A DNA stretch of 39,727 nucleotides, from positions 1 through 39,727 of the IMG/VR virus record IMGVR_UViG_3300034283_001104. One strand, 5' to 3'. The notes under the pieces were generated by a model. That model searched no databases. It saw only the letters and a program-made list of their open reading frames with translations, and was not told the DNA's origin. The first letter of the stretch is position 1. The number at the start of each line of letters is the position of its first letter. Shown piece after piece: positions 33,843 to 37,482 of this stretch. This DNA comes from a virus. The position numbers and the translations under genes are program-made.

Positions 33843-34842
33843 CGGCACGATCACGGCGACGGATCTCGAACTGCGGATCACCGCGCCGCTCGCTGGGGCG
33901 GATGGCCCGCCGCTTCTGTTGCCGTTCCAACGGCTCTCGTCCATCGTGGGCAGCCTGGTCGGCTCTGACGAGGTGACGCTGACGGTCGACGGCTCTTGTT
34001 GCGTGGTGCAGGGCGGCAGCGGCACCTGGCGGCTCCCGGTCGAGGATGCAAAAGAATATCCCCCAGGGGACTATGCGGCGTCGAGGTCGATCGCGCGCCT
34101 GCCCGCTGACCAGTTCGTTTCGCTCGTCTCCACCGTGAAGGGTGCGACTGACAACGAGAGCAGCCGCTTCGCTCTTGGGGCCGTGCTGATGGAGTTCTCA
34201 CGCCCGAAGGACAAAGAGGAGCCATACGGGACGTTGACGTTCGTCGGCACTGACGGCCGGCGGCTCTGCGCTGCGTCGTGCGAGGTCGAGCAAGACTGCG
34301 ACGATTCGCAGACGCTTGCCCCTCGGGCTGCGGTCGACACGCTCGTCAGGCTCGCCAAGGGGGCCGAGGCGGTGCAACTGGAGACAACGGGCCGCGAGCT
34401 CGTCGCCACGGTGGACGGGACGATTGTCCGCTCCAGGCTCATCGAAGGGCGATTCCCACGCTGGCGAGACGTGGAAGTCGATCACGGCGTCACGCCGTCG
34501 CTCGTCGTCGCTGGGGCTCTGTCTCACGCCTGCGAAATGGCGAGCATCTGCGCGAGCGAAAGCTCGAAGGGGACGGAATTCGTGTTCACGAAGGACGGGC
34601 TTTTCTTGTCGGCCCGATCGGCTGAATACGGCGAGTCGTCCGCGACGTGCGACCTGGTCGAAGTCGGCCACGCCTGCACGGTGAAGCTCGACCCGCGATT
34701 CGTCTTGTCGTGGCTTCGCTGCGGAAGCATCGACCCGGCCGAGACGATCACGATCGAGGCGAAGGATGGCGACTCTGCGGTCATCCTGCGAGCCGGTGAA
34801 GGCATTCGCACGGTCATCATGCCGCTCGCCAAGGACGCCTGA
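33694..34842 (+). CDS. dnaN: DNA polymerase III beta subunit homologue (sliding clamp)
   Basis: 382 residues from ATG 33694 behind AAAGGAT; in-frame 33685 ATG is possible. Residues 20-130 (LAASDLAAGLRAVAAAVPTRSPKPILANVLI, ITATDLELRI) form clamp domain I; LTFVGTDGRRLCAASCEV and later GRFPRWRDVE match the family; the end IRTVIMPLAKDA corresponds to the bacterial clamp C-terminus. Length matches bacterial DnaN (about 366). It would tether host polymerase III or a phage polymerase to the template. No polymerase gene lies in the window. Confidence 0.85.
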   Translation: MTTATKTRRKTQSGGIQLAASDLAAGLRAVAAAVPTRSPKPILANVLIADGTITATDLELRITAPLAGADGPPLLLPFQRLSSIVGSLVGSDEVTLTVDGSCCVVQGGSGTWRLPVEDAKEYPPGDYAASRSIARLPADQFVSLVSTVKGATDNESSRFALGAVLMEFSRPKDKEEPYGTLTFVGTDGRRLCAASCEVEQDCDDSQTLAPRAAVDTLVRLAKGAEAVQLETTGRELVATVDGTIVRSRLIEGRFPRWRDVEVDHGVTPSLVVAGALSHACEMASICASESSKGTEFVFTKDGLFLSARSAEYGESSATCDLVEVGHACTVKLDPRFVLSWLRCGSIDPAETITIEAKDGDSAVILRAGEGIRTVIMPLAKDA

Positions 34843-35096
34843 TGGATCGACGCTACTACCACATCACCGAGGGCGAACTGAAACGTCTCTGGGAGTCGCG
34901 GATGCTGGCGAAAGACATCGCCAAGCACTTCAACGTCTCTCGCGAGTTGGTTTACGCCGCTCGGAAGTTTTTCGGATTGCCTGACCGCGATCCGGTTCGT
35001 GCAGATGAAGTGCCAGATCCCACGCCCGAAGAGATTCGAGCCCGCAAGCGGGAAGTGCGACGAAAGCACTTCGCCTCGAAGCGGTCAGAGGCTTGA
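34842..35096 (+). CDS. Small helix-turn-helix protein
   Basis: 84 residues overlapping the clamp stop (TGATG). ITEGELKRLWESRMLAKDIAKHFNVSRELVYAARKFFGL is a clear helix-turn-helix in which AKDIAKHFNVSRELVYAARK reads as turn and recognition helix. The C-terminus is basic. It probably regulates transcription or contacts DNA at a packaging or origin site. Family not recognised. Confidence 0.65.
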   Translation: MDRRYYHITEGELKRLWESRMLAKDIAKHFNVSRELVYAARKFFGLPDRDPVRADEVPDPTPEEIRARKREVRRKHFASKRSEA

Positions 35097-35156: not shown

Positions 35157-35459
35157 ATGAGAAGTTTTTTCCTGGCGGTTGCGATGATTTGCGGCGGCGT
35201 TGCCCTGGCTGACCAGTTCGTCGTGACAACGACGACGACGATCACGACAGCGCAGGAAGACGCCGAGACGATGGCTCGCACGGGCATCCTGCGTCACTGT
35301 GGACGCGCGGGCGGCCGGCGAGAGGGTATCGGCATGGGGCCGACGCCGCAGGCGGCAGAGCGAAACTGCTGCTACTACGGGCGGTATCGCATCGTCGAGA
35401 AGGGCGTTGCGTGGTCGCCCGTGAAGCGTGCCTACTTCGCGGTGATTCGCTACGAGTGA
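35157..35459 (+). CDS. Small secreted Cys-containing protein
   Basis: 100 residues. MRSFFLAVAMICGGVALADQ is a good signal peptide with cleavage likely after ALA. The mature part is Thr-rich (TTTTTITTA), then ILRHCGRAGGRREGIGMGPTPQAAERNCCYYGRYRIVEKGV with three Cys (HCG and NCC). Proteins of this plan, with a GIGxGxTPxxAxxxCC segment, are familiar to me from Planctomycetota genomes, which is the main host hint. Function unknown; export suggests an envelope role. The gene overlaps rusA by a GTGA. Confidence 0.6.
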   Translation: MRSFFLAVAMICGGVALADQFVVTTTTTITTAQEDAETMARTGILRHCGRAGGRREGIGMGPTPQAAERNCCYYGRYRIVEKGVAWSPVKRAYFAVIRYE

Positions 35460-35863
35460 TCACGTTCGTCGTACAGGGCGAGCCCGTCCCGCAGCCGAGG
35501 CCGCGCGTCTCGACTCGGGGCGGGTTCGCTCGTGCGTATGTGCCAGCGACGCATCCAGTTCATGCGTACCGCCAGAAGATCGCCACAGAGGCCACCAAGG
35601 CGGGCCTAGAGCCGCAAAGCGAGCCAGTTGAGGTAATCGTCGAAGCGGTCTTTGTGCGTCCCAAATCGCACATGACGAAAAAGGGCGTGAAGCCAACAGC
35701 ACCGAAGCTGCCAAGGCCAGACGTTGACAACATCGCAAAGGCGATCCTTGATTCGCTGCAAGACGTGATGGGAGACGACACGAACGTGAGGCTGTTGACT
35801 GTTGGGAAAGCATATGGAAACGAATCACGAACAACAGTGAGCGTGAAGTACGGAAAGCCCTAG
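35456..35863 (+). CDS. rusA: RusA-type Holliday junction resolvase
   Basis: 135 residues from a GTG overlapping the previous stop. FVVQGEPVPQPRPRVSTRG is the typical RusA start and PRPDVDNIAKAILDSLQDVMGDDTNV holds the acidic cluster (Asp89, Asp91, Asp107, Asp108) and Lys95 matching the E. coli RusA active-site plan. It cuts four-way junctions, probably to resolve recombination intermediates before packaging. It closes the early operon, ahead of a 284-bp non-coding stretch. Confidence 0.85.
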   Translation: MITFVVQGEPVPQPRPRVSTRGGFARAYVPATHPVHAYRQKIATEATKAGLEPQSEPVEVIVEAVFVRPKSHMTKKGVKPTAPKLPRPDVDNIAKAILDSLQDVMGDDTNVRLLTVGKAYGNESRTTVSVKYGKP

Positions 35864-35904
35864 AAAACAAGGGCGAAACGCATGCGGCATGCGAAGAAGC
35901 CTAC

Positions 35905-36015
35905 AAAAATAGGCAAAAGCGAACGCAACGAAAAACATGCGCATTTCCCGAGAAAAACGCACAAAAATACCAAAAACATGCGAAAAACAAGGGAAAAACA
36001 GCGGTTTTTGCAAAA
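35905..36015. other. Phased A-tract (intrinsically curved) DNA
   Basis: The 284-bp gap between rusA and the ParB-methyltransferase gene holds nine A/T tracts of 4-5 bp. Five A5 tracts and a T5 tract start at 35953, 35963, 35972, 35983, 35994 and 36005, i.e. spacings of 10, 9, 11, 11 and 11 bp. Another A5 starts at 35931 (22 bp before). Tracts in helical phase give strong intrinsic curvature. CATGCG occurs four times at 35881, 35888, 35936 and 35977, two of these as AAAAACATGCG 41 bp apart. No convincing gene lies here. Confidence 0.75.
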
Positions 36016-36026
36016 TGCAACACCGC
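36001..36026. repeat. Palindromes next to phased A-tracts
   Basis: GCGGT (36001-36005) and ACCGC (36022-36026) bracket the perfect palindrome TTTTGCAAAA (36006-36015). They lie at the right end of the curved segment and could be a protein site or hairpin. Confidence 0.45.
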
Positions 36027-36147
36027 CCCGGATGGTGGGCGGGTGGACGGGTCCTTCCGGCGAAATCGACGGGAAGCCTCCGCTGCGAGCCTCCCAATTA
36101 TGACACTTTCTTTCTTTCTTCCGCCCCCTTCGGAGCCCCTGTAGATC

Positions 36148-37482
36148 ATGAAAATCCGCGACAGAATCCGCGAACTTCGCCGCGTCTCTGCGTCTGAATT
36201 GCGGCCAAACCCGAAGAATTGGCGGACGCACCCGCAGGCCCAGGCGGACGCCCTCAAGGGGGTGCTGGCCGAGATCGGGATCGCTGACGCCGTCCTGGCC
36301 CGCGAGCTCGACGACGGCTCACTGATGCTCCTCGACGGTCATCTCCGGGTCGAGACGATGGGCGACCAGATCCTCCCGGTCCTCGTCCTCGACGTGAATG
36401 AGGCCGAAGGCGACAAGGTGCTTGCCACGCTCGACCCGCTGGCTGCGATGGCCGAATCGGACGCGGCGAAACTGGACGCCATTCTCCGCGAGGTCGACAC
36501 CGGCTCGCCTGAGTTGCAGCAGATGCTCTCGGACTTGGCCGAGGAGGCTGGGCTCTACCAGGACGAAGCGAAAGAGATCGTCGAGGACGAGATCCCCGAG
36601 CCGCCGGTCGATCCGATCACGAAGCCGGGCGACCTGTGGGTGCTCGGCGATCATCGCCTGCTCTGCGGCGACTCGACAAAGGCGGAAGATGTCGAGCGGC
36701 TGATGGCGGGCGCGAAGGCCGACCTGTGTTTCACGTCGCCGCCGTATGGGCAGCAGCGAGACTACACCGAAGAAGGCAAAGCAAAGGTAGCTGATTGGGA
36801 TGGGCTCATGCGTGGCGTGTTTGCCAATCTACCTATGGATGACGCTGGGCAGGTGCTCGTCAATCTCGGGCTGATACACCGCGACGGAGAATGGCTTCCG
36901 TATTGGGATACTTGGATTGGGTGGATGCGTGACCAAGGCTGGAGACGTTTCGGGTGGTATGTCTGGGACCAGGGCAGCGGATTGCCGGGTGATTGGAGCG
37001 GCCGCTTTGCGCCATCGCACGAGTTCGTCTGGCATTTCAACCGCGAATCAGTCAAGCCAGAGCATTGTGTTCCAAAAGACCCCAAGAGTATTCGTGACAG
37101 GACCGGCGATGCTGCGATGCGGATGGGTGCCGCGAAAACGCAGAAGGCAACTAGCGGCAAGGCTTCGCTGAACACGCACAAGATTCCTGACAGTGTCATT
37201 CGCGTACAAAGGCAATGCGGGCGGATCGAGACAGGCGACTACCATCCCGCTGTTTTTCCGGTCGCTTTTCCGCGTGCAATCATGGAGGCGTGGTTCGGGT
37301 CATGCTACGAGCCCTTCTGCGGCTCCGGCACCACTCTCATCGCCGCCGAACAACTTGGCCGCAAGTGCTACGGCATGGAGATCAGCCCGCAATATTGCGA
37401 CGTAATCGTCAAGCGGTGGGAGACGTTGACGGGGAAGAAGGCAGAACTGGAAAAGCCCGCCAAGAAGTCGAAGGCGAAATAA
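36148..37482 (+). CDS. ParB-like domain fused to DNA methyltransferase
   Basis: 444 residues. Residues 1-95 are a ParB/Srx-type domain (LRPNPKNWRTHPQAQADALKGVLAEIG, LLDGHLRVE). The methyltransferase part has SPPY at 197-200 before FCGSGTT at 390-396, i.e. catalytic motif ahead of the SAM-binding motif, the beta-class order, suited to adenine-N6 or cytosine-N4. The middle (residues ~205-375) is the recognition domain. Codons there are AT-richer than in both flanks, so it may have been swapped in. Phages use such genes to modify or mark their DNA; it sits next to the large terminase. Confidence 0.85.
   Translation: MKIRDRIRELRRVSASELRPNPKNWRTHPQAQADALKGVLAEIGIADAVLARELDDGSLMLLDGHLRVETMGDQILPVLVLDVNEAEGDKVLATLDPLAAMAESDAAKLDAILREVDTGSPELQQMLSDLAEEAGLYQDEAKEIVEDEIPEPPVDPITKPGDLWVLGDHRLLCGDSTKAEDVERLMAGAKADLCFTSPPYGQQRDYTEEGKAKVADWDGLMRGVFANLPMDDAGQVLVNLGLIHRDGEWLPYWDTWIGWMRDQGWRRFGWYVWDQGSGLPGDWSGRFAPSHEFVWHFNRESVKPEHCVPKDPKSIRDRTGDAAMRMGAAKTQKATSGKASLNTHKIPDSVIRVQRQCGRIETGDYHPAVFPVAFPRAIMEAWFGSCYEPFCGSGTTLIAAEQLGRKCYGMEISPQYCDVIVKRWETLTGKKAELEKPAKKSKAK

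Follow-up and report, generated by a model that had tools for sequence, protein, structure and literature searches.

In phage lambda the cos site is laid out in the order cosQ-cosN-cosB, and the GpA-type phages lambda and P2 both produce 5' overhangs. The lambda site carries a static A-tract bend, I2, beside cosN and a second, IHF-assisted bend, I1 (PMC4856287), and its cosQ is needed to complete cutting at the downstream site (PMC4669245). The small-terminase site of HK97 contains an A-tract that is read by its shape, which tolerates swaps of A/T orientation but not G:C (PMC11331095). A 13-nt 3' cos is described for the Clostridium phages phiCD481-1 and phiCD506; as 5' overhangs are filled in during end repair and 3' overhangs are trimmed off, phages with a 3' cos are assembled with differing terminal sequences (PMC5557969).

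The DNA analyzed here is an IMG/VR virus record of 39,727 bases with 63% G+C, referred to as the window, and its gene content is that of a temperate tailed phage. A head maturation protease/major head protein lies at its left edge, and the window also has genes for the tape measure and the tail, a minus-strand integrase gene and RecT, followed by a replication-initiator-like protein, a LexA-like DNA-binding protein and a clamp-like protein ahead of the array of A-tracts that we focus on below. The last gene before this array encodes a RusA-like Holliday junction resolvase (35456–35863, plus strand). To the right of the array follow, on the same strand, a DNA methyltransferase with a ParB-like N-terminal part (36148–37482) and the terminase large subunit TerL with a GpA-type nuclease domain, PF20454 (37486–39642), so that the gene order is RusA, array, methyltransferase, TerL. 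The portal region expected between TerL and the head protease is absent from the record, and since complete relatives have 43–45 kb, about 3–5 kb are probably missing from the window, whose ends are at 1 and 39727. Relatives were retrieved from IMG/VR using TerL, the methyltransferase, RusA and the clamp. The ParB-like/methyltransferase gene is lacking in many relatives. Among those with a TerL of about 80% identity or more it is either present or absent, and therefore the modules on either side of the cos site, which we describe below, recombine freely. A megablast search against named phages gave no match, and tblastn of TerL against named phages returned, among the matches listed, only partial ones with <30% identity. 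Likewise, neither a host nor a prophage was found in two scans of a bacterial genome set, one for TerL and one for a 23-base pattern of the array, and an Rfam search gave no match.

Between RusA and the methyltransferase gene, A5 tracts start at positions 35905, 35931, 35953, 35963, 35972, 35983 and 35994 and a T5 tract at 36005, which agrees exactly with the starts and spacings given in an earlier sequence-only reading, including an additional A5 22 bp upstream of the main group. The last seven of these A5/T5 tracts form the phased array (35931–36009, plus strand), in which the tracts are separated by the spacer elements CATGCG, TTTCCCG and GGGAAA. The two copies of AAAAACATGCG that had been reported 41 bp apart are located at 35931–35941 and 35972–35982; the first copy, and AAAACATGCG within the second, are invariant in 11 of 11 aligned arrays. 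It had been argued that a GC-rich genome should not contain such a cluster by chance, and indeed 110 bp hold eight A5/T5 tracts, whereas 200 sequences of equal composition from a first-order Markov model had three at most. The curvature prediction proposed as a check on this reading points in the same direction. Using two wedge models, 63-bp segments of the array have a predicted bend of 129° (roll/tilt table; window mean 25, SD 14) and 134° (Bolshoy-type table; window mean 22, SD 13), which are the highest values anywhere in the 39.7-kb window in the respective models; with 126-bp segments, a few other sites in the window approach it. When the spacers were randomized and the seven tracts kept, the predicted bend over 80 bp was 51 ± 26° vs. 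154° observed, a value attained in 0.02% of the trials, which shows that the phasing matters beyond mere A-richness. A simple test for a periodicity of 10.5 bp in the tract centers of the last seven tracts is marginal (p ~0.06). With helix-phased tracts and a net predicted bend, the array is predicted to be intrinsically curved A-tract DNA.

The contigs of many relatives begin at one homologous point shortly ahead of the first packaging gene. Aligned on joined contexts, the contigs of 13 relatives start exactly at the base equivalent to 36092 (0–1 mismatch) and one further contig starts one base before it, whereas six, including L251 and G001, end at the base equivalent to 36078. No contig stops within the 13 nt between these two edges, and the diverged sequences of G003 and G004 have comparable ends. 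The 45,330-bp contig G001 has both its ends at these edges and therefore looks like a complete linear chromosome. The 13-mer reads TCCGCTGCGAGCC in the window, and relatives usually have TCCACGGCGAGCC or TCACCGGCGAGCC; it is missing at both contig ends and present where ends are joined. As the window contains it, the window is joined DNA, i.e., a circle, a concatemer or a prophage that spans the cos site. The two ends have no terminal sequence in common, right ends stopping at AAGCC and left ends starting after GAGCC; a 5' overhang common to both ends, as in a lambda-type cos, is thus not seen, whereas the lack of the cohesive bases from both contig ends is what an HK97-like 3' cos gives in assemblies. 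The simplest reading of these assembly-derived genome ends indicates a cos cut leaving a 13-nt 3' cohesive end, with the putative cosN at 36079–36091, a bottom-strand nick between 36078 and 36079 and a top-strand nick between 36091 and 36092. The physical ends appear to be fixed at this single site (13 left and six right ends, with G001 contributing both), and the site is close to the terminase genes: the predicted cut lies 56 bp to the left of the methyltransferase gene, which is followed by TerL, and directly before TerL in relatives. Moreover, a GGTCCT box (36050–36055, plus strand) is found 29 bp to the left of the predicted bottom-strand nick, and as GGTNCT it keeps this distance in nearly all variants listed, while the intervening bases differ. 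The TerL with its PF20454 domain is here paired with an inferred 3' overhang, unlike in lambda.

Several inverted repeats surround the array and the cos site. One of them, GCCCTAGAAAACAAGGGC (35857–35874, plus strand), overlaps the RusA stop codon and has variants to the left of cos in relatives, and a second one, GCCTACAAAAATAGGC, is located at 35899–35914 (plus strand). The palindrome TTGCAAAATGCAA (36008–36020, plus strand), in place of which some relatives have TGCCAAAATGGCA, lies between array and cos, followed by a G+C-rich stem-loop (36021–36045, plus strand), which could be cosQ-like or a terminator; many relatives have a stem-loop of other sequence at a similar position. Inverted repeats of the GCCTAGAAAACAAGGC form recur to the left of cos in many relatives. 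In L166 the arms are changed yet complementary (GCACT/AGTGC), and in L023 such a repeat is located to the right of cos, ahead of TerL, about 50–70 bp from the cut.

We consider it the best explanation, with a probability of about 60%, that the array serves the cos packaging site of this phage as an accessory module on the cosQ side, which is intrinsically curved and putatively binds a protein. The right end of the array (36009) is 69 bp to the left of the bottom-strand edge of the predicted cut, which spans 69–82 bp rightward of the array. In pattern scans of the whole IMG/VR viral collection the array adjoins cos and is found nowhere else, chance matches of the short array patterns in unrelated contigs (L243, L250, L253, L257, L259, L323–L327) being left out. 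In the complete true occurrences of this collection, i.e., leaving aside two contigs whose ends fall within the array, a fixed point of the array is 143–149 bp from the cut, mostly 144–145 bp; the exception is L251 with 156 bp and a run of 22 C in between. The main rival of the packaging reading sees in the array an upstream activating region that belongs to a late promoter, with curved, A-rich DNA resembling an UP element and the methyltransferase and terminase genes being reached by transcription across the joined cos. The position fits, as the array precedes the first packaging gene by 139–217 bp in the joined form, a TGCTACACT-like box is present just past the array in many relatives, and A-tracts on either strand would work. 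The spacing rule does not fit, since the distance from array to cut is nearly fixed, whereas that from cos to the first gene varies between types, from 36 to 108 bp (measured to ORF starts). Furthermore, the window has GCAACACC at the position of the GCTACACT of relatives, and a scan of 35400–36400 for promoters of the sigma-70 type found none, so that -35/-10 hexamers downstream of the A-rich stretch, as in a sigma-70 promoter with an UP element, are not seen. The late promoter that had been among the candidates of the sequence-only reading thus gained no support from this sigma-70 scan, and we regard it as unlikely.

For the accessory role in packaging, the conservation of the array is also of importance. 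The array is conserved across 12 distinct sequences, and in diverged relatives its identity is 78–92%, compared to 33–52% at four-fold sites of TerL and RusA. Between the window and L246, for example, the array is 86% identical vs. 33% at the four-fold sites of RusA and 41% at those of TerL, and elsewhere it is 91–92% identical where four-fold sites of the flanking genes are at about 50%. Besides the A-tracts, the conserved parts comprise GAAAAACATGCG, ATTTCCCG and CATGCG, and therefore something appears to read the sequence as well as the shape. Behind the second CATGCG, L246, L251 and L252 have a T5 tract in place of A5, and L249 has TTTGTT. Despite such A5 to T5 flips, the predicted bend of the 12 distinct arrays is 116–129° throughout and its offset does not change. 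This preservation is suggestive only, as 6–39% of simulations with random substitution reach it per comparison. The array-bearing relatives belong to only a few lineages, so that the counts are not independent.

The same alignments bear on two readings in which the array would act as a transcript or as a coding region. It could act as RNA, with the end of the early (RusA) transcript forming hairpins that terminate transcription or shield the 3' end. The inverted repeats GCCCT/AGGGC, GCCTA/TAGGC and TTTCCC/GGGAAA, a fold z-score of -3.5 (on both strands) and the plus strand carrying A in nearly all tracts are in accordance with this. However, a dyad of 26 pairs has no covariation, with no pair altered on both sides, and RNA structure was rejected for this reason; the flips from A5 to T5 make or break pairs on one side only and are not predicted by any strand-specific reading. 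Terminator-like sites are no more common than in shuffled sequences, with none on the plus strand, so that neither covarying pairs nor the U-tract of an intrinsic terminator are present, and the nearly fixed spacing between array and cut requires no RNA explanation. A function as RNA is therefore quite improbable. The frame 35882–36103 could encode a short Lys-rich protein, as in the window and most relatives no stop interrupts it across the array. Among 11 distinct arrays it has 8 synonymous vs. 25 non-synonymous changes, though, and no clear synonymous excess was found in any frame across the array; moreover, L035 has a stop in this frame, L013 a 1-bp deletion, and the product has no family match. 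We consider such a protein extremely unlikely. The statement of the sequence-only reading that this is the only frame across the array was mistaken, since 35937–36197 (plus strand) and three ORFs on the minus strand cross it as well.

That the array could be a replication origin had also been suggested, and it could equally be a partition site, with the CATGCG repeats in the role of iterons and unwinding taking place in the A-rich DNA. The 41-bp spacing of the repeats and replication genes (clamp, initiator-like) within 4 kb are compatible with this idea. However, the GC skew keeps its sign at the array, L004 is without the array yet retains the clamp (99%) and the initiator (96%), and the array tracks cos rather than the initiator gene. 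As neither a skew switch nor iterons tied to an initiator are found, an origin has no support here and is very unlikely.

Relatives in which the array is lost, shortened or replaced show what its role in packaging may be limited to. In L003, L004 and L005/L050, TerL is 98–99% identical to that of the window and the cos cores match, but the full array is absent. It is therefore accessory, not essential for cutting and not part of the core of the packaging site. Thus, of the packaging start that had been proposed for this locus, the link to the genome end is supported, as the predicted cut lies 69–82 bp to the right at a near-fixed distance, whereas a core function does not, as relatives with a 99% identical TerL have the array shortened or replaced. 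In L005 and L074 the array is shortened, which is consistent with a collapse between direct repeats 89 bp apart, and a predicted bend of 96–99° is kept at -146 to -72, exceeding the 99th percentile of random 300-bp pieces. A predicted bend of 101° remains in L069, where a PD-(D/E)XK-like nuclease-family gene (L069:6173–6694) lies between RusA and the cos-left region, immediately to the left of cos. No outstanding predicted bend was found to the left of cos in L003, L004, L007 and L017. In place of the array, L004 has a T5orf172/GIY-YIG-like gene (L004:5363–5767) and L003 an HNH-like gene (L003:2536–3177), both of nuclease families and placed after the upstream genes, immediately to the left of cos. 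The nuclease-family genes beside cos are possibly homing genes that exploit the cos neighborhood. The HNH frame of L003 terminates within the cos core.

Comparison of sequences establishes the position of the array, its conservation, its predicted bend and its proximity to the inferred cos, and on this basis the array probably belongs to the packaging signal as an accessory part. Once the chromosome is packaged, the array would be located no more than ~160 bp from the right end, the left end being expected to enter the head first. In concatemers or circles, such as the window, it would lie 69 bp to the left of the staggered cut that frees the 13-nt 3' cohesive end. A static bend would be maintained by the phased A-tracts, and the two invariant spacer elements, CATGCG and TTTCCCG, may be read by a protein, which could be the small terminase or an architectural protein of the host. 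Such a complex could help TerL to pause at cos and to place the nicks. A site for a host nucleoid protein, which had been another candidate, fits this packaging reading. A small terminase was not recognized, as the stretch from cos to TerL holds only the optional methyltransferase. An HTH protein of 84 aa (34842–35096) was considered as binder of the array and is disfavored, because its variation does not follow that of the array: it drops to 31% identity where the array stays at 92%.

It is possible, but so far doubtful, that the 80-bp array on the cosQ side, strongly curved and sequence-specific, represents a new architectural class of packaging element, which would enable a GpA-type terminase to cut with a 13-nt 3' instead of a 5' stagger, would act together with an unrecognized DNA-binding partner and would be replaceable by endonuclease-encoding cassettes next to cos. 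Public assemblies alone yielded the exact genome ends of an uncultured phage group, together with a cos consensus (GGTNCT-N-AGCC/13 nt). The natural variants, in which the array is kept, shortened, replaced or changed from A5 to T5, are suited for testing DNA shape vs. sequence in terminase guidance. If confirmed on virion DNA, a GpA-type nuclease together with a 3' overhang would be contrary to the lambda/P2 pattern.

Among the described systems, phiCD481-1 and phiCD506 match in type and length of the predicted overhang, the feature compared here. With HK97 the locus appears to share a 3' cohesive overhang and an A-tract, which in HK97 serves small-terminase recognition (PMC11331095). However, the HK97 overhang has 10 nt, its small-terminase site is 15–29 bp to the right of the cut, and it has a single 9-bp A-tract and no long phased array. 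The role suggested here resembles by analogy that of lambda cosQ and of the static bends I1/I2. As in lambda, the cut adjoins a terminase gene, TerL belongs to the GpA-type nuclease family, a short conserved box is present on the left side (here GGTNCT, in lambda cosQ), and an A-tract static bend is predicted near cosN (PMC4856287). In contrast to lambda, the bend is to the left of the cut, with ~120–150° predicted here vs. 28–34° measured for I2 and I1, and no recognized small terminase lies between cos and TerL. The overhang is inferred to be 3' with 13 nt, whereas that of lambda is 5' with 12 nt, and since a shared 5' overhang is absent, we file the site as a new variant of cos rather than as lambda-type.
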